The notes under the pieces are model-generated. The model ran no database searches. It saw only the letters and a program-made list of their open reading frames with translations, and was not told the DNA's origin. Below, in pieces: positions 1 to 8,855 of a DNA stretch of 11,601 nucleotides (its first letter is position 1; the number at the start of each line of letters is the position of its first letter). Source of the DNA: JAUWCW01 sp030609125 [NCBI: Candidatus Rokuibacteriota bacterium] (GTDB lineage: Bacteria; JAUVQV01); contig JAUWCW010000029.1 in NCBI GenBank assembly GCA_030609125.1, forward strand, positions 1-11,601, in the 5' to 3' direction. Both the position numbers and the translations under genes were made by a program.

Positions 1-1594
1 TCGGCTCGTAGGACTCGACAAAGGAAAGGGCCTTGCTCTCCTCCTCCTCCGTCTGTCCCGTGAGAAGGGAGAAGGCGACGTAGAGGCCCACGTTGACGAG
101 AAGCCCCCAGAAGAGAGCGTGGCTCCACTCGTCGAGCCCCTTGACGCCGAGAAGGGCATGCGGGTTCAGCAGCTCGGACTGCATGATCCTGCCGACCACA
201 CCCTCACGTTCGATTATGCCGGAAGTGACCAGTGCGGGCAGAAAGAGAGTGTAGCACCACACCACGAAGCCGCCCACCGTCCCCGCCACGGCCCCGAACC
301 GGTTCCCCTTCTTCCAGTAGAGTCCGAAGATTATGGAGGGCACAAAAATACTCACGGCCACGAAGGAGATGAGGCCCATGTCCACGAGGGTGAAGTACTC
401 GCCGACAGTCGCCGCGAAGAGGTAGCCGACGAAGACAAAGGCCATGATTATGATCCGCTTCACGTTCGAGAGAATGACGGAAAATCCCCGCATTCTGTTG
501 AACCGCCAGATGGCCGGACTGACTATATTGTTTATGACCATGTTGCTGATGGCGAGGGACTCGACGATGATCATCCCCGAGGCGGCGGAAAACCCTCCGA
601 TGAAGACGAAGAGGGCGAGGAAGTTCTTCCCCTGCCCCAGGGGAATGGTGAGCACGAAGGTGTCCGCGCCGCTCGGGCTTCCCCCGAGGAGGAGCCCGCC
701 GAAGGCTACGGGAAGAACAAATATGTTGATCAGCAGCAGGTAGAGGGGAAAGAGCCAGGCAGCCTTCCTGACATGCTCCGGGTCGTAGTTCTCCACCACC
801 GCCATGTGAAACTGCCGCGGAAGAACTATGATGGCCATCATGGAGAGAAAAGTGAGCGAAGCCCATTGGGCGTAGCCGACCGGGGCCCCTTCGCCGAGGG
901 CCAGGAGGTTGCGGAACTCCGTGGCCTCTATCCTCTGGAAGATGTCGCCAAAGCCGCCGAAGAGGCTGAACGTGACGTAGAGTCCCACCGTCAGGAACGC
1001 CGCGAGCTTCACGATCGACTCGAAAGCTATGGCGAAGACCAGCCCCTCGTGCTTTTCCGAGATGTCCTGCCGCCGGACGCCGAATATGGTGGCGAAGAGG
1101 GCGATGATGAGTGTGATGATCCACGCCGCTCCCAGGCTCCCCTTGCTCTCTCCCGCCAGGATGGTGAAGGTGCCGATGATCGCCTTGATCTGCAGTCCCA
1201 GGTACGGTGTTATGCCCACCGAGGCGACGACGGTCACGATGGCGGCCAGCAGTATGGAGTTGCCGTACCGGGAACCGATGAAGTCGGCGATAGTGGTGAT
1301 GCGGTGCTGTCTGGCTATACCGATAATCTTGCGCAGGACAACGGGCCAGAGCAGCGCGGCCAGAGTGGGCCCGATATAGATGGCCAGAAAGGAGAGGCCC
1401 GAAACGGCGGCCTTGCCGACACTCCCGTAGAAGGTCCATGAGGTGCAGTAGACCGCCAGTGACAGGGAGTAGACGTAGGGGTTCGAGACGATGCTGCGTC
1501 CACTCCGCCCTCTGCGCTCCGCGTAGGAGGCGATGAGAAAGAGGACGCTCAGGTAGCCGCCGGTGACAAGCAGGAGAAACCATCGCGGGAACAT
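1..1594 (-). CDS. SSS-domain (CbrA-like) sensor histidine kinase, N-terminal part, runs off left edge
   Basis: An open frame of 531 codons reads leftward from ATG at 1594 to the window edge without a stop. The visible part is a multi-helix sodium:solute symporter (SLC5/PutP-type) domain with about 13 hydrophobic segments. Segments around residues 40-62 (YVYSLSLAVYCTSWTFYGSV), 98-111 (ITTIADFIGSRYG), 128-137 (ITPYLGLQIK) and 256-269 (IVLPRQFHMAVVEN) match what I know of the N-terminal transporter domain of CbrA-type sensor kinases rather than plain transporters. In CbrA this domain is followed by a STAC linker and HisKA/HATPase domains; those would lie left of position 1, so the kinase is inferred. 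Residues 515-531 are already a charged cytoplasmic stretch, as expected for the linker. The ATG overlaps the stop of the preceding small gene (TGATG), which implies translational coupling. The alternative is a stand-alone symporter. The ligand is unknown. Confidence 0.85.
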   Translation of the reverse strand, partial: MFPRWFLLLVTGGYLSVLFLIASYAERRGRSGRSIVSNPYVYSLSLAVYCTSWTFYGSVGKAAVSGLSFLAIYIGPTLAALLWPVVLRKIIGIARQHRITTIADFIGSRYGNSILLAAIVTVVASVGITPYLGLQIKAIIGTFTILAGESKGSLGAAWIITLIIALFATIFGVRRQDISEKHEGLVFAIAFESIVKLAAFLTVGLYVTFSLFGGFGDIFQRIEATEFRNLLALGEGAPVGYAQWASLTFLSMMAIIVLPRQFHMAVVENYDPEHVRKAAWLFPLYLLLINIFVLPVAFGGLLLGGSPSGADTFVLTIPLGQGKNFLALFVFIGGFSAASGMIIVESLAISNMVINNIVSPAIWRFNRMRGFSVILSNVKRIIIMAFVFVGYLFAATVGEYFTLVDMGLISFVAVSIFVPSIIFGLYWKKGNRFGAVAGTVGGFVVWCYTLFLPALVTSGIIEREGVVGRIMQSELLNPHALLGVKGLDEWSHALFWGLLVNVGLYVAFSLLTGQTEEEESKALSFVESYEP

Positions 1595-1770
1595 CAGCGT
1601 TTGCGGTCCCTTCCGCCTCCGGCGCCGAGGAGGGCGGCGACGGCGATGAACACGCCCCAGAGCACGAAAAGACCGAGCGCGAGGGATCCTTCGAAGACGG
1701 TGAGGAAGGGCCAGTTAAAGAAAATGACCCCCAGCGCGAAGAGAAAAAACCAGATATCGCCCTGCTTCAT
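1594..1770 (-). CDS. small two-helix membrane protein coupled to the sensor kinase (CbrX-like position)
   Basis: A 58-residue protein from ATG at 1770, with hydrophobic segments at about residues 6-25 and 29-50 and a basic tail (GGGRDRKR), so probably two membrane helices with a cytoplasmic C-terminus. Its TGA stop shares its last base with the ATG of the SSS-domain gene. Small hydrophobic proteins are encoded directly upstream of several SSS transporters, and a short gene called cbrX overlaps cbrA in pseudomonads; I infer a similar accessory role from position, not from sequence identity. An in-frame ATG at 1800 would add ten residues (MAHEISRPAS), but those codons lie mostly in the terminal repeat of the inserted element at 1776-1795. 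I therefore take 1770 as the ancestral start. Neither start has a good Shine-Dalgarno sequence. No enzymatic motif is visible. Confidence 0.7.
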   Translation of the reverse strand: MKQGDIWFFLFALGVIFFNWPFLTVFEGSLALGLFVLWGVFIAVAALLGAGGGRDRKR

Positions 1771-1775
1771 CGAGG

Positions 1776-1795
1776 CTGGCCTGGAGATTTCATGA
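1776..1795 (+). repeat. left terminal inverted repeat of the insertion element
   Basis: Reads CTGGCCTGGAGATTTCATGA on the plus strand. It matches the inverted copy at 2121-2140 at 17 of 20 positions. It overlaps the first codons of the longer reading (start 1800) of the small membrane protein. Confidence 0.7.
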
Positions 1796-1804
1796 GCCAT
1801 CTGC

Positions 1805-1931
1805 TGCGAGCGCGGATATCACGCAATCTCAAGGTCTTTTCCTGTCTCACGACCTTGCCGTGCTTCAGCACAGCTTCACCCGCTCAACTGCGCAAAAGCC
1901 CTTGATCTTACGTAATCTCCACGCTCTCGCA
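1805..1931 (-). ncRNA. second branched hairpin domain of the element
   Basis: The arms 1805-1826 and 1908-1931 pair with a 2-nt bulge. Inside are two smaller stems: CAAGGTC (1830-1836) with GACCTTG (1851-1857), and GCCGTGC (1857-1863) with GCACAGC (1868-1874) around a TTCA loop. The two share base 1857 and may be alternatives or stacked. Four non-identical pairs, three in the outer stem and 1859/1872, are G-U in the minus-strand RNA and C-A in the plus-strand RNA, the same polarity as in the neighbouring large hairpin. Confidence 0.45.
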
Positions 1932-2120
1932 ACTAAGGGCTCACGCAAGAATAACTTCCCATTTTCGCATCTCATCTTCAGGCCGCCTTCGGCCGATCCT
2001 CATTCACGAAATCCTCGAAAGAGCCCTGCTATTCCTGCGGTTTCGCTCAATCAGATCGACCAAATCCGACCTGAACCTGAGCGCGAATTCTGTGAACTTA
2101 TTCTTGCGTGAACCCTGAGT
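1932..2120 (-). ncRNA. large hairpin, candidate structured RNA domain (about 90-nt arms)
   Basis: Arms pair around a centre near 2026. The outer 27 bp (1932-1958 with 2094-2120) agree at 24 positions. A second conserved part is 1971-1998 with 2054-2081. Within the arms to about 1999, six non-identical pairs (1940/2112, 1966/2086, 1983/2069, 1990/2062, 1993/2059, 1999/2053) are G-U in the minus-strand transcript, and I find none that would be G-U only in the plus-strand transcript. That asymmetry favours selection on a minus-strand RNA, the sense of the surrounding operon. No U-tract marks it as a simple terminator. No known RNA family was recognised. Confidence 0.5.
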
Positions 2121-2140
2121 TCATGAAATATCCGGGCTAG
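2121..2140 (-). repeat. right terminal inverted repeat of the insertion element
   Basis: Reads CTAGCCCGGATATTTCATGA on the minus strand, the inverted partner of 1776-1795. Its outermost CTAG contains the TAG stop of the aminomutase gene, so the element abuts the stop codon exactly. Confidence 0.7.
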
Positions 2141-3948
2141 TAGTAGTACCAGATCGTCTTGTAGTGGCTGATGTTTTCCCCGGACTTATGCAGTCTTCTC
2201 AGGTAGTCGTGGATGGAAACGTCCTCGTAGACGTACGTGTCGGCAAGGGCGAGCTTCTTTTCCCAGGGGTGAAACTCGTAGACCCTCCGGCCGTTGGGAA
2301 GGACCGCGATGATGTCGTGGTGCTGCAGCGCCCGGAGATAGTTCTTCCCCAGCCCGGGGACGTTGAAGACGATCTCGTCGGTGCGCACCGAACCGGGGAG
2401 CAGCCTCGCCTCCTCCTTCTGCTCCTGCATGAGCCTGGCGATGGGAACCCGGTAGTCATCGGTCTCCTCCTTGCCCTTGGTGTTGAACGTGTAGTACGGG
2501 GTAACACCCGCCAGTCGCAGCTTGTGGCGAAGCGCGGAGGCCTCGAATTTTCGCGAATTGAAAAAGGTGTACACGAGCTGATTGCAGACCTCTATGCCCT
2601 TCCGCCGGAATTTCTGCACCGCCCTGACGGCGTCCCCCGTGATCTCGTAGGGATGCTCGAAGTGGGTCACGACGAGGACCTCCCTCCGCCCCGGGCGGTG
2701 GTAGCGGCTCACCATCTCCACCAGTGAATCGGTGACGCGCTGCGGAAGAGTGACGGGGGTCCTGGTCCCGAGGCGGATTCTCTCCACGTGATCCATGCCG
2801 GCAAGGCGGGAGAGAATTTTCTCCAGTTTGCCGTCGGAGAGGAGAAAGGGGTCTCCTCCCGTCACGAGGACCTCGCTTATTTCGGGAGTCTCCTCCAGCC
2901 ACCGCAGGGCCTTTTCGAGCTTCTCCCGCGGCAGGGCGGCCCGGAAGGAGTGGACGTCCTCGATCTCCCAGTTCCTCTGGCAGTAGACGCAGATCTGCGG
3001 ACACGTCATGAACGGCTTCAGGATGGCGATCATAGGATAGCGGCGGGTGATTCCCTCGATGGGGGAGGTGTCCCGCTCGAGCATGAAGTCCATGGACGAC
3101 TCCTCGCAGTCCCGGTGCTCCCTCATCTTCTCGACAAAGTGGAGCGTGGGAATGACCTGCGCCCGCACGGCACTGTCGCGACCCCCGCCGATGCGCCGAT
3201 CCATGAGCGAGAGGTAGTAGGGCGTGACGCCGAAGGCAATGCGGTTCTCACGGGCGAGTCGGACCGCTTCCTTCTCTTCAGTGCTCAGATCGATGAGCGA
3301 CGCGAGGGTTTCCGCGTCCCTGATGATGTGCCGCGTGTGCCACTTCCAGCTGTTCCAGTCCGCAACGGTGCCGCCCATGAAATCCAGGATCCGTGCCCTG
3401 TTTCTCCGCCTCCTGGCAACCGCGTTTTCATCGAGACCGGACGGGTAGCGGTTCATGAATTCTCTCGCCCGGCGGGCCATCCGTGAAAGGTCCTCCGACC
3501 TCAGGCGGGCCGCTCTCTTCCCTTCGTATCTGACGAAGGCGGGAATGCGGTCCGCGTAGACGCCGGTCTTCCCCATGACCCCTCTCAGCAGGTGCTCGAG
3601 CTCTGCGAAAAAGCCCTGCCTTGGCTTTTCAACGCCCCCGGCGCCGATGAGAATGTCGTTCAGGTATTCGACGAGGCTGAATCCGGCGAGCCTTTCGCTC
3701 CGGGCTGAAAATATTCTCCTCAGCACGCCGATGGCGTCGCGCGTCAGGATCCACTCCAGCGACGGAATCTTCGGGTTGTCCTCGAACGTGTCGGTCAGGA
3801 GGCGCGAGAGAAAGGAGCGGGCTTTCGTCCTCTTCACGTGAATCGGGCTGTCGGCGAGAAAGATGGACATGAGTTCCGGAGCGATATCCAGAACGCTGAT
3901 CAGCCTCTCGCGAATCCTCTCTCTCTCCACCACAGCCTTTTCTGTCAC
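2137..3948 (-). CDS. KamA-family radical SAM/PLP 2,3-aminomutase, glutamate-mutase-like pocket
   Basis: A 603-residue protein from GTG at 3948 with GGAGAG 5-6 nt upstream. Residues from about 194 onward follow the lysine 2,3-aminomutase fold: a WNSWKW segment (199-204), the radical SAM cluster motif CPQICVYC (C316, C320, C323), the SAM-binding VTGGDP stretch, and the PLP lysine in NVPGLGK (K535). These enzymes move the alpha-amino group of an amino acid to the beta carbon through a SAM-derived radical and PLP. Aligned from memory, Asp293 and Asp330 of clostridial lysine 2,3-aminomutase, which bind the lysine side-chain amine, correspond here to Lys491 and Asn529, the substitutions described for glutamate 2,3-aminomutase. 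The C-terminal zinc-binding cysteines of the lysine enzyme are absent. The first about 190 residues are an extra, mainly helical, charged region with no motif I recognise. Family is certain; substrate is inference. It precedes the small membrane protein and sensor kinase on the same strand. Confidence 0.9.
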   Translation of the reverse strand: MTEKAVVERERIRERLISVLDIAPELMSIFLADSPIHVKRTKARSFLSRLLTDTFEDNPKIPSLEWILTRDAIGVLRRIFSARSERLAGFSLVEYLNDILIGAGGVEKPRQGFFAELEHLLRGVMGKTGVYADRIPAFVRYEGKRAARLRSEDLSRMARRAREFMNRYPSGLDENAVARRRRNRARILDFMGGTVADWNSWKWHTRHIIRDAETLASLIDLSTEEKEAVRLARENRIAFGVTPYYLSLMDRRIGGGRDSAVRAQVIPTLHFVEKMREHRDCEESSMDFMLERDTSPIEGITRRYPMIAILKPFMTCPQICVYCQRNWEIEDVHSFRAALPREKLEKALRWLEETPEISEVLVTGGDPFLLSDGKLEKILSRLAGMDHVERIRLGTRTPVTLPQRVTDSLVEMVSRYHRPGRREVLVVTHFEHPYEITGDAVRAVQKFRRKGIEVCNQLVYTFFNSRKFEASALRHKLRLAGVTPYYTFNTKGKEETDDYRVPIARLMQEQKEEARLLPGSVRTDEIVFNVPGLGKNYLRALQHHDIIAVLPNGRRVYEFHPWEKKLALADTYVYEDVSIHDYLRRLHKSGENISHYKTIWYYY

Positions 3949-5471: not shown

Positions 5472-8400
5472 ATGGTCAATTACAAGGCCTGTTGCGGGCT
5501 GGTTGTCTTCGCCGTCCTCCAGTTCCTGCCGTTGAGGGCGGCGCTGGGGGCGCAGATCATTCACCACGATCTCTCCGTCGTACTTGATCCGGTATCCCAC
5601 AGCCTCCGAGTCAGCGACACCGTCACGGTTCCGGAGTCCTTCCTCGCCGGCGACGGAAAGCCGCTGACCTTCTCCCTCCACGAAGGGCTCTCACCCTCCT
5701 CCCCCACTGCGGGCGTCGGAATCCTGAAGAGCGGCTCCCACGGCGGCTCCCCCGGGCTTGAAGCCTTCACGGCCGTTCTTCCCCCCTCGGTCCGCACCTT
5801 CACCCTGCACTACGGCGGCGCCATAGACCATCCCCTGGAAGAGGTCGGCGAGGAGTATGCCCGGGGCCAGCGGCAGACGGCGGGCCGCATATTCCAGGAC
5901 GGGGCCTATCTCTCTCCCCGGTCCGGCTGGTATCCCGATTTCGGAGAAGGCCTTTTCTCCTTCTCCCTCGCCATAGAGCTGCCCGCCGCGTGGGACGCCG
6001 TCAGCCAGGGGCGGCGCACCGAACACACAGCCGGCGCCGCATCGAGAAGTGTGCGGTGGGAAGAAGAGGTGCCGCAGGACTCCATATTCCTTGTCGCCGG
6101 GCCGTATACCGAGTACGTCCGGCAGGAGGGCGGACCGGCGGCGATGGTCTTTCTTCGCCGGCCGGACGAGTCTCTGGCGAACCGATACCTGGAAGTGACG
6201 CTGCAGTACGTTGCCATGTACGAAGAGCTGATCGGCCCCTACCCGTACGGAAAATTCGCGCTGGTGGAGAACTTCTGGGAGACCGGATACGGGATGCCTT
6301 CCTTCACCCTCATGGGCCCGAAAGTCATTCGCTTCCCCTTCATACTTCACTCTTCCTACCCGCACGAGATCCTCCACAACTGGTGGGGCAACGGCGTCTA
6401 TATCGATTACGAGAGCGGCAACTGGGGGGAGGGGCTCACCGCCTACCTCTCCGATCACCTGATCAAGGAGCAGAGAAACCAGGGCGCCCAATACCGCCTC
6501 ATCGCCCTGCAGAAGTACTCCGACTACGTCACCTCGGGCCGGGACCTGCCCCTCACGGATTTTCGCTCGCGCCACGGCTCGGTGAGCGAAGCCGTGGGCT
6601 ACGGCAAGTCGCTCATGTTCTTCCACATGCTGCGACGCCGGCTGGGGGACGACGCCTTCCGCGGCGGTCTCCGCGCTTTCTACGGGCAGCACCTCTCCCG
6701 GGTCGCCTCCTTCGACGATCTGCGCCGCGCTTTCGAAACTTCCTCCGGGGAATCGCTGGAGCACTTTTTCGAGCAGTGGCTTTCCCGCAAGGGCGCTCCA
6801 CGCCTGACGGCGGAGGGGGTGAGCCTCGCACGCGACGGTGACGATTATCTGCTCCGGGGAACGCTCCGCCAGACACAGGAGGAGAAAGCGTTCGTCATTG
6901 ACGTTCCCCTCGCCGTCACCCTGGAGGGGAAAGTCGAGGCGGCCGAGGCCGTCGTGCCCATGACGTCCCGGAGTGCTTCCTTCGAGCTTCGCTTCCGCGA
7001 AGCGCCCCGGCGCGTCGACGTCGATCCCTCCTTCGACGTCTTCCGGAGGCTGGACCCTCTGGAGATTCCTCCCGCTCTGACGATGGCCTTCGGCGCCGAC
7101 AAGGCGCTCATCCTTCTCCCCTCCGCCGCCGGCGCCGACATTCTCGACGGGTACCGCGAACTCGCCCGCTCCCTGAGCCGCAGCGGCCCCGGGAGCGTGG
7201 AAATCATGACCGACGATGAGATTGAAGAGCTCCCGGCGGACCGGTCGGTCTGGCTCCTGGGCTGGGAAAACCGCCTCTTTCCGGAGATGCTGCGGGCCCT
7301 CGACGGCCGCGGCTTCTCTGCCGGCGACACGACGGTCCTTCTCGGAAAGAGCGAGATCCCGCGGGAAGACCACGCCTTCGTCCTCACCGCCCGCCACCCC
7401 TCCAGCCCCTCCCTCGCCCTGCTCTGGATAGCCGCGGACAATCCTGAAGCCATCCCCGGCCTGGGCCGGAAGCTACCCCACTACCACAAGTACAGCTACC
7501 TGGCCTTCTCCGGTCCGGAACCGGAAAACGTCGCCAAGGGGCGCTGGCCCGTGAAAGAAAGTCCCTTGACCATGGTTCTTGCCGGCGGCGGCGAGTCTCC
7601 CCCTCCCCCCCCCGGCAGTCTCCCCCGCCGGGACCCGCTGGCCTCCCTGGAGCCCCTCTTCTCCCGGGAGCGCATGGTCGAAACCATCGCCTTTCTCGCC
7701 TCCGAGAAACTCGGGGGACGCGGGCTGGGAACCCTCGGCCTGGACAGCGCCGCCCGCCACATCGCCGAAAGCTTTTCTTCCTCCGGACTGCGGCCCGGTG
7801 GAGATGACGGCAAGAGCTATTTTCAGAGCTGGGCCCACCCCGGCGACGACGGCTCCGGGGAGATCCTCCTCCAGAACGTCATCGGCGTCATTCCCGGCGC
7901 CCGCCCGGAGTGGGAGGGGCAGACCATCGTCATCGGCGCTCACTACGATCACCTCGGCCGCGGCTCGGGCGTCGCCGGTTCGGATGTGCGGCAAGGGAAC
8001 GAGGGTTTCTTTCATCCCGGAGCGGATGACAACGCCAGCGGCGTCGCCCTTCTGCTCGAGCTCGCGCGTGTGCTCGGCGGCGGCTGGAAGCCGGAACGCA
8101 CCGTCGTCTTCGCCGCCTTTTCCGGGGAGGAGGCGGGCAAGATCGGCTCCCGTTATTACGTTGACAACGCCGATCCTTCCCCCGCCCTCGGCTGCCGGGC
8201 AATGATCAACCTGGACACGGTGGGCAGGCTGAGGGACGGCAAGCTCATGGTCCTCGGCGGCGGCTCGTCCAGGGACTGGGTCCACATCTTCCGCGGAGCA
8301 GGTTTTCTCTCCGGCGTGGAGGTGGAGATGGTGGCGGAAGATCTCGATTCCAGCGATCATGTCTGCTTCCAGGAAAAGGGCATCCCGGCGGTTCAGCTCT

Positions 8401-8855
8401 TCTCCGGCCCCCATCTCGACTATCACCGGCCGGGCGATACGCCCGACAAGATGGATCCGGACGGACTCCTCAGGCTGGCGGCCCTGACAAAAGAGGTGCT
8501 GGAGTACCTGGCACGCAGGGAAGAGCCCCTCACGGCTCCGCCCGCTTCGGGCAGGGGCCCCGCGGAAGACCGCTCACCGGCCGGCGGGAAGCGCAAGTCC
8601 AGCCTCGGGACGGTTCCCGATTTCTCCTTCCCCGGGCCGGGGGTGCGCCTCGCAGGGGTCGTTCCCGGGTCGCCGGCGGAAAAGGCCGGCCTGCGCGAGG
8701 GGGACGTGGTCCATGCCGTAGGGGAGACGAAGATCCCCTCCCTGCGCGACCTCGCCGCGGTCCTGAGGAGGCTCCGCCCCGGAACACGGGTGGCGATCAG
8801 CTTCTCCAGGGACGGAAAACACCTCGGTGCGGAGGCAGTCCTCGAAGACCGATGA
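5472..8855 (+). CDS. secreted M1-like / M28 / PDZ tripartite metallopeptidase
   Basis: An 1127-residue protein; ATG 5472 is preceded by GAGGAG with a 4-nt gap. Residues 1-26 form a signal peptide (cleavage near LGA-Q). Residues about 30-530 are an M1-like domain with HEILH (H298, E299, H302), a downstream GEG whose E320 is the likely third zinc ligand, and Y377 in VGYGKS as the possible catalytic tyrosine. The GAMEN exopeptidase motif is replaced by GYGMPS (272-277). Residues about 540-700 are a linker region of unknown role, then a proline-rich stretch (710-714). Residues about 725-1015 are an M28 aminopeptidase domain with all expected metal residues: H824 and D826, D853, E886-E887, D915 and H985. 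Residues about 1055-1125 are a PDZ domain (GVVPGSPAEKAGLREGD). The protein should act in the periplasm or outside the cell, trimming peptides. It follows the PD40 gene by 146 bp. Domain calls are firm; activity of the M1 half is uncertain. Confidence 0.9.
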   Translation: MVNYKACCGLVVFAVLQFLPLRAALGAQIIHHDLSVVLDPVSHSLRVSDTVTVPESFLAGDGKPLTFSLHEGLSPSSPTAGVGILKSGSHGGSPGLEAFTAVLPPSVRTFTLHYGGAIDHPLEEVGEEYARGQRQTAGRIFQDGAYLSPRSGWYPDFGEGLFSFSLAIELPAAWDAVSQGRRTEHTAGAASRSVRWEEEVPQDSIFLVAGPYTEYVRQEGGPAAMVFLRRPDESLANRYLEVTLQYVAMYEELIGPYPYGKFALVENFWETGYGMPSFTLMGPKVIRFPFILHSSYPHEILHNWWGNGVYIDYESGNWGEGLTAYLSDHLIKEQRNQGAQYRLIALQKYSDYVTSGRDLPLTDFRSRHGSVSEAVGYGKSLMFFHMLRRRLGDDAFRGGLRAFYGQHLSRVASFDDLRRAFETSSGESLEHFFEQWLSRKGAPRLTAEGVSLARDGDDYLLRGTLRQTQEEKAFVIDVPLAVTLEGKVEAAEAVVPMTSRSASFELRFREAPRRVDVDPSFDVFRRLDPLEIPPALTMAFGADKALILLPSAAGADILDGYRELARSLSRSGPGSVEIMTDDEIEELPADRSVWLLGWENRLFPEMLRALDGRGFSAGDTTVLLGKSEIPREDHAFVLTARHPSSPSLALLWIAADNPEAIPGLGRKLPHYHKYSYLAFSGPEPENVAKGRWPVKESPLTMVLAGGGESPPPPPGSLPRRDPLASLEPLFSRERMVETIAFLASEKLGGRGLGTLGLDSAARHIAESFSSSGLRPGGDDGKSYFQSWAHPGDDGSGEILLQNVIGVIPGARPEWEGQTIVIGAHYDHLGRGSGVAGSDVRQGNEGFFHPGADDNASGVALLLELARVLGGGWKPERTVVFAAFSGEEAGKIGSRYYVDNADPSPALGCRAMINLDTVGRLRDGKLMVLGGGSSRDWVHIFRGAGFLSGVEVEMVAEDLDSSDHVCFQEKGIPAVQLFSGPHLDYHRPGDTPDKMDPDGLLRLAALTKEVLEYLARREEPLTAPPASGRGPAEDRSPAGGKRKSSLGTVPDFSFPGPGVRLAGVVPGSPAEKAGLREGDVVHAVGETKIPSLRDLAAVLRRLRPGTRVAISFSRDGKHLGAEAVLEDR

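Follow-up and report, generated by a model that had tools for sequence, protein, structure and literature searches.

A MITE-like repeat nested in another carries a conserved, strand-biased hairpin core that may act as a folded RNA

The window considered here (the whole stretch of DNA analysed, 11,601 nucleotides) contains, between positions 1805 and 2120, a long imperfect palindrome within an operon read from the minus strand. The gene just upstream on that strand encodes a radical SAM protein (2137-3948, minus strand), which we take to be lysine-2,3-aminomutase-like; downstream are a 68-aa open reading frame (1594-1800, minus strand), for which a Pfam search returned no family, and a sodium:solute symporter family gene (2-1594, minus strand) that runs off the window. 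Elsewhere the window encodes a 1127-aa protein (5472-8855) in which a PDZ domain accompanies peptidase domains of the M1 and M28 types. An initial annotation of the palindrome, made by eye, counted ten stem mismatches that become G-U pairs in minus-strand RNA and none of the opposite polarity, and proposed that the segment may carry or be a functional RNA of about 320 nt, of no recognised family, made in the direction of the operon. The question raised by the locus is whether such an RNA exists, or whether the one-sided stems have some other cause.

The bias itself is real. When the arms were aligned by a strand-neutral scheme, in which G:T and A:C are scored alike, the minus strand of the first hairpin (1801-1932) showed six G:T and no A:C oppositions, as did that of the second (1931-2121), so that the joint count is 12 to none (two-sided binomial p 0.0005), in line with the count made by hand. 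The segment 1801-2136 folds as RNA at -172.7 kcal/mol on the minus strand (z -12.6) and at -113.8 on the plus strand (z -7.0); the energies of the two strands are thus far from equal, the minus strand being clearly the lower. The plus strand folded as DNA reaches -55.3 (z -4.7).

The segment is, however, not the single unit of about 320 nt that had been envisaged. A search of the window's own genome (G000; 2.3 Mb in 376 contigs) with positions 1780-2145 as query gave 61 matches, which are of two kinds and represent full and partial copies of two repeats. Matches of the first kind cover query positions 1-158, several copies continuing directly with 339-361, and define element A; matches of the second kind cover query positions from about 154 to 340 and define element B. 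Positions 1805-2120 consist of parts of both, B lying inside A, and on the basis of these two nested families we rejected the single RNA.

Element A occupies 1780-2136 on the minus strand and is split by B into 1780-1933 and 2119-2136; uninterrupted, it would measure about 178 bp. Its ends are CCCGGATATTTCATGAA and TCATGAAATTTCCGGG, mutated at the 1780 end, and the first seven codons of the 68-aa open reading frame lie within it. We take its flanks, CTGG (1776-1779) and CTAG (2137-2140), the latter providing the TAG stop of the radical SAM gene, to be a 4-bp target duplication that is imperfect in the window copy. Element B (1937-2115, minus strand) starts with GGG and ends with CCC, and its flanks, TAA (1934-1936) and TGA (2116-2118), are likewise taken as an imperfect target duplication, here of 3 bp. 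The empty site is preserved elsewhere in the genome: 12 other full copies of A lack the insertion and have GAA, on the plus strand, at the point that TAA-B-TGA occupies in the window. Within B lies a core (1965-2088, minus strand), a conserved and covarying hairpin whose minus-strand fold contains G-U pairs and tandem GA loops; its apex (2013-2040), which reads CCGCAGGAATAGCAGGGCTCTTTCGAGG on the minus strand, is common to elements with other arms and ends.

Short, non-coding and multicopy, with terminal inverted repeats and with both filled and empty sites, these repeats possess the features of miniature inverted-repeat transposable elements (MITEs). Evidence of target duplication differs between them. 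Identical 4-bp flanks, mostly CTAG, were found in 7 of 12 copies of A, against a mean of 3.8 in shuffled pairings; because the shuffled maximum is also 7, a duplication by A is only suggestive. Among relatives of B in a second genome (G119), which is filled with B-like copies at 74-79% identity, 14 of 32 have identical 3-bp flanks (including AAA, ATA, TCA and TGA), compared to a shuffled mean of 4.5 and maximum of 10. In G000 the corresponding count for B is 4 of 11 and equals chance (shuffled mean 4.0), since nearly all flanks are TAA. Both ends could be placed in 32 of 44 copies from G119 and in 11 of 13 from G000, and some were misplaced and scored as misses. Target duplications are accordingly clear for B in G119 and at most suggestive in G000. 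The ends of A were also compared to those of five other elements. Only one, in genome G350, resembles A at both ends (scores of 17 and 15, where shuffling gave at most 12.5 and 11.5), while an element of G119 (L046) passes at one end and those of G274, G100 and G087 at neither. The G350 element carries a B-type apex, and to judge from this likeness of sequence A and B are connected through it.

Shortened forms of both elements are present as well. A form of B of about 99 bp (L261-L266, six places in G119) and a form of A of about 53-84 bp (L280-L286, seven places in G000) keep both ends and lack the apex. By eye, TTA stands on both sides of three of the short B forms (L261, L263 and L266), and these forms accordingly seem to move too; since short forms have multiplied, the core is dispensable for movement as such. 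When each element's own end was sought again within its locus, three rows in two loci, among 69 elements, had a second copy, which we took for further short copies. Several copies in G000 lie at or near contig ends (C340, C140, C53, C298, C343, C288 and C21); the assembly probably breaks at the repeats, and copies are probably undercounted.

The strand preference seen in the window is shared by its relatives. The G-U strand folds better in all 13 copies of A (the joined window copy included), in all 15 copies of B and in all 28 B rows of G119, which represent 26 distinct places. To define the core we aligned 38 sequences: the window copy, two further copies from G000, two from G119 and 33 of 43 representatives drawn from the matches listed; ten representatives with other arms, insertions or degenerate sequence were left out. 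Standard pairs occupy 96.4% of cells, against 80.7% in shuffled alignments and 36.0-46.7% in slid ones. By counts that take no account of phylogeny, both partners have changed in 29 of 41 pairs (shuffled mean 19.0), with 221 two-sided cells compared to 61.4 after shuffling, and the copies therefore do covary, as would be expected had the initial annotation been right about a structured strand. GU cells outnumber AC cells by 213 to 16, although such cells are not independent because the copies share ancestry. One wobble pair is GU in 19 of 39 rows and UG in 14, the copies with the swap forming a block. Tandem GA/GA makes up each of two internal loops, in 21 and in 25 of the 38 rows respectively; a GATTGA/GATTGA loop has its exact form in 19. 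The constancy of the apex in 33 of the rows carries no weight, because the search pattern fixed most of its letters; in genomes found with a covariance model of the B core (R2), by eye, the apex stem varies and stays paired. The strand chosen by that model folds better in 15 of 16 loci (in one by 0.1 kcal/mol; the exception is L335). An Rfam covariance search at permissive E-values, covering the window and 16 loci with relatives, returned nothing over A, B, the core or the relatives, in keeping with the earlier impression of an unrecognised family; its matches elsewhere were a tRNA, one resembling a c-di-GMP riboswitch, and others that are weak and due to chance. Together these data show that the core is under constraint as a one-strand fold.

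How widely is the core distributed? A first look at 145 genomes gave matches to B in three beside G000, whose copies were counted among them, and to A in two. R2 matches 14 of 386 sample genomes, the window's own included; a model of B finds matches in one of two genomes of the window's phylum and in one of two of the phylum of G119. A scan of named genomes for the apex, in a pattern that left two base pairs free, returned at least 120 stretches, and both free pairs are canonical in 74 of the 80 stretches listed. Carriers among the matches listed are mostly Geobacteraceae, Desulfobulbaceae and other Deltaproteobacteria, and include Geobacter, a Gemmatimonadetes MAG, Synergistaceae, Gammaproteobacteria and others; among the Geobacter species with copies is Geobacter argillaceus. 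The MAG deposited as Gemmatimonadetes (NYZA01000008.1) carries the same element as G119 and is the same genome, present in both samples. A search of plasmids, phages and viral contigs gave no match to the element. The outer ends of B differ between lineages, and the inner core, about 120 nt long, is found again and again from Geobacter through to the window's phylum.

Three further observations concern the apex and its surroundings. Five elements among the matches listed (L143, L152, L158, L160 and L188) have the exact apex amid different arms and ends. In a Deltaproteobacteria MAG (G146, Dive100_bin10.32), 13 places among the matches listed share an identical 33-nt apex with an element of type 1, and their BLAST match to that element is limited to those 33 nt, which suggests either exchange of the apex or strong constraint upon it. 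Lastly, an optional insertion of about 27 nt (CACCCCAAGRG...GCA) stands at the same place beside the apex, much alike wherever it occurs, in copies from G000 (L027), a Desulfobacterales MAG and a Proteobacteria MAG (the further loci being L139, L192, L206 and L181).

Polarity recurs across this range. In a one-copy-per-genome count, based on 75 elements from 41 genomes among the matches listed (at least 70 nt on both sides), there were 334 GU and 110 AC; taking genome means, GU was ahead in 39 genomes, behind in one and tied in one. A division by region, in 31 genomes, gave 181 GU to 17 AC in the core and 56 to 26 in the ends (p 5e-6 for the difference), and the ends are thus far less polar than the core. 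The five elements with other arms show no polarity in the core (15:16). Ancestral states were then reconstructed on trees of four copy families, and changes from Watson-Crick pairs to GU or AC compared to the matching changes at unpaired sites. On internal branches the stems show 37 changes to GU and 9 to AC, the unpaired sites 10 and 15 (p 0.0013), with 30 of the 37 GU changes coming from G119 alone. On tip branches the figures are 102:56 for stems and 48:44 for unpaired sites (p 0.06), and singletons show little stem bias (22:17, against 16:8 at unpaired sites). Polarity varying at random from copy to copy, which would have told against the initial proposal, is thus seen only in part, in the singletons. 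Our interpretation is that the folded strand is under selection, which acts mostly where a lineage continues to spread; the five elements with other arms speak against this. Strand-biased mutation is disfavoured by the unpaired control on internal branches.

The reading that in our view best accommodates these data, and to which we give a probability of about one half, is that B is a transposable MITE-like hairpin lodged in A, whose core serves as a folded strand of its own, probably RNA, in a role that concerns the element itself. A MITE-like element, A, occupies 1780-2136 and has been entered by a second such element, B (1937-2115). The ends would be acted upon as double-stranded DNA by a transposase supplied in trans, and the core would function once folded and single-stranded, most likely as RNA read from the G-U strand. 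Selection for the fold would operate mainly in lineages that continue to spread, on two grounds: pairing is preserved more by changes that have been propagated than by recent ones, and copies are found in either orientation relative to neighbouring genes. The role of the core would most likely be one for the element, for example the binding of a factor that aids spread or tolerance, rather than regulation of the operon. We also entertain a bolder version, which we regard as doubtful: that apex and core form a folded module, probably RNA, passed between unlike miniature transposons and between phyla and helping its carriers to spread. If true, this would be a mobile non-coding RNA riding on different transposon ends, a kind of passenger not yet described.

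The data would suit either RNA or single-stranded DNA as the folded strand. Strand-specific hairpins of mobile DNA are familiar from REP/RAYT and IS200/IS605 systems, and the folded strand of B could likewise be DNA, recognised as a one-strand hairpin by a Y1/HUH (RAYT-like) or other single-strand recombinase. Such recognition would account for polarity without transcription and for random orientation to genes. We looked for transposase partners of two families, PF01609 and Y1_Tnp. PF01609 genes are present in G000 (2), G119 (2) and G146 (3), and ends matching the elements were not found at them in any of the three genomes, on which ground a DDE partner of this family was rejected. Y1_Tnp genes occur in all ten carrier genomes examined (nine above the curated cut-off), and one in G000, a RAYT-like gene for a 328-aa protein on contig C288 (L349:1922-3180), is separated by about 200 bp from a B core, one without its outer end that runs into the end of the contig. 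However, such genes are common anyway, being present in 5 of 14 control genomes, and a core match was found at only 1 of 37 Y1_Tnp loci. Apex-like strings are no more frequent there, with 21 in 134,522 bp near Y1_Tnp genes against 115 in 763,967 bp of other flanks, and the GC skew of the flanks shows no clear replication-strand preference of the G-U strand (46 positive, 60 negative). We therefore rejected RAYT as a linked partner, present though it is in carriers. Compared to REP/RAYT and IS200/IS605, B has target duplications (in G119) and long inverted ends, which are unlike single-strand transposition, and has no general linkage to Y1_Tnp. A folded DNA strand is accordingly rather unlikely.

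Less probable still is the reading closest to the original proposal, that the hairpin is a regulatory RNA of the operon, transcribed with its neighbours and tuning their mRNA, an effect described for ERIC. The operon of the window has the G-U strand as its sense strand, and in G000 this strand follows the upstream gene in 19 of 25 scored copies (the window being counted once for A and once for B). In addition, a probable Geobacter cousin, Gmet_R1005 = GSU0160.1, stands in an operon in two species, according to the Geobacter metallireducens genome paper (PMC2700814). Beyond G000 the association is lost. On gene calls that come, for G000 and the other genomes alike, from a simple codon-usage script, G119 has 10 copies in the same and 14 in the opposite orientation to the upstream gene (n = 24). 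Among the matches listed for named genomes 68 elements at least 150 bp from the locus ends were kept (two inside open reading frames, five without an upstream gene), and of the 61 scored 29 are in the same orientation and 32 in the opposite (p 0.80). Transcription in the direction of the operon, as first supposed, thus does not hold as a rule.

Random orientation would be compatible with a small RNA gene that stands alone under a promoter of its own, works for the host and is mobile by chance, and so would conservation of a covarying core across phyla. The spread is patchy, with 14 of 386 genomes and, for the B model, one of two in each of the phyla of the window and G119; this and the many near-identical and decayed copies, which look selfish, make such a gene improbable too. 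Finally, although shared ancestry of copies, the weak bias of singletons and the lack of it in elements with other arms would suit an ordinary palindromic MITE whose polarity arose accidentally, by descent or through strand-biased mutation, the two-sided changes in 29 pairs, the swap of G-U to U-G in a block of copies and the contrast of stems (37:9) to unpaired sites (10:15) leave this very little room.

How does the preferred reading, a MITE-like element with a folded strand of its own, compare to systems already described? HEARO, group II introns, GOLLD and ROOL are also long folded RNAs, some of them tied to mobile DNA, and none was matched by the Rfam search of the window and the 16 relative loci. 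The closest precedent is in the genome paper of Geobacter metallireducens (2009), which in the part consulted reports 24 copies of intergenic 'predicted short RNA elements' occurring in Geobacter and Desulfotalea, with a central palindrome GRCGTAGCGCTGCTACGCC (PMC2700814). The Geobacter copies of the present study have a similar sequence, GGCGTAGCAGGGCTACGTC, as their apex, and on this resemblance the predicted elements are likely cousins of the B family; the same part of the paper describes neither fold, ends, target duplications and covariation nor strand bias, and gives no mechanism (PMC2700814). Apart from that notice, a search of the open-access literature found no description of the B family. 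Several features were not encountered in this literature and are to that extent apparently new: a core common to several phyla, the covariation within it, the contrast between a polar core and much less polar ends, and an orientation that is random.

In kind, B is close to the MITEs with folded transcripts, of which ERIC, Correia/NEMIS and QMITE2 are bacterial examples (PMC2229807, PMC10969869). Like B, these measure 100-200 bp and have inverted ends, target duplications and, once transcribed, a long stem-loop; for ERIC, orientation matters. They differ from B in that the B core spans several phyla, is polar while its ends are much less so, and has an apex shared by different ends. It is common to regard bacterial MITEs as what is left of transposon ends. 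The B family, with a conserved, covarying, strand-biased core in several phyla and the same apex amid quite different ends, makes a testable case that small transposons may possess their own functional folded RNA (or DNA strand), and Geobacter, a cultivated genus among the carriers, is open to such testing.
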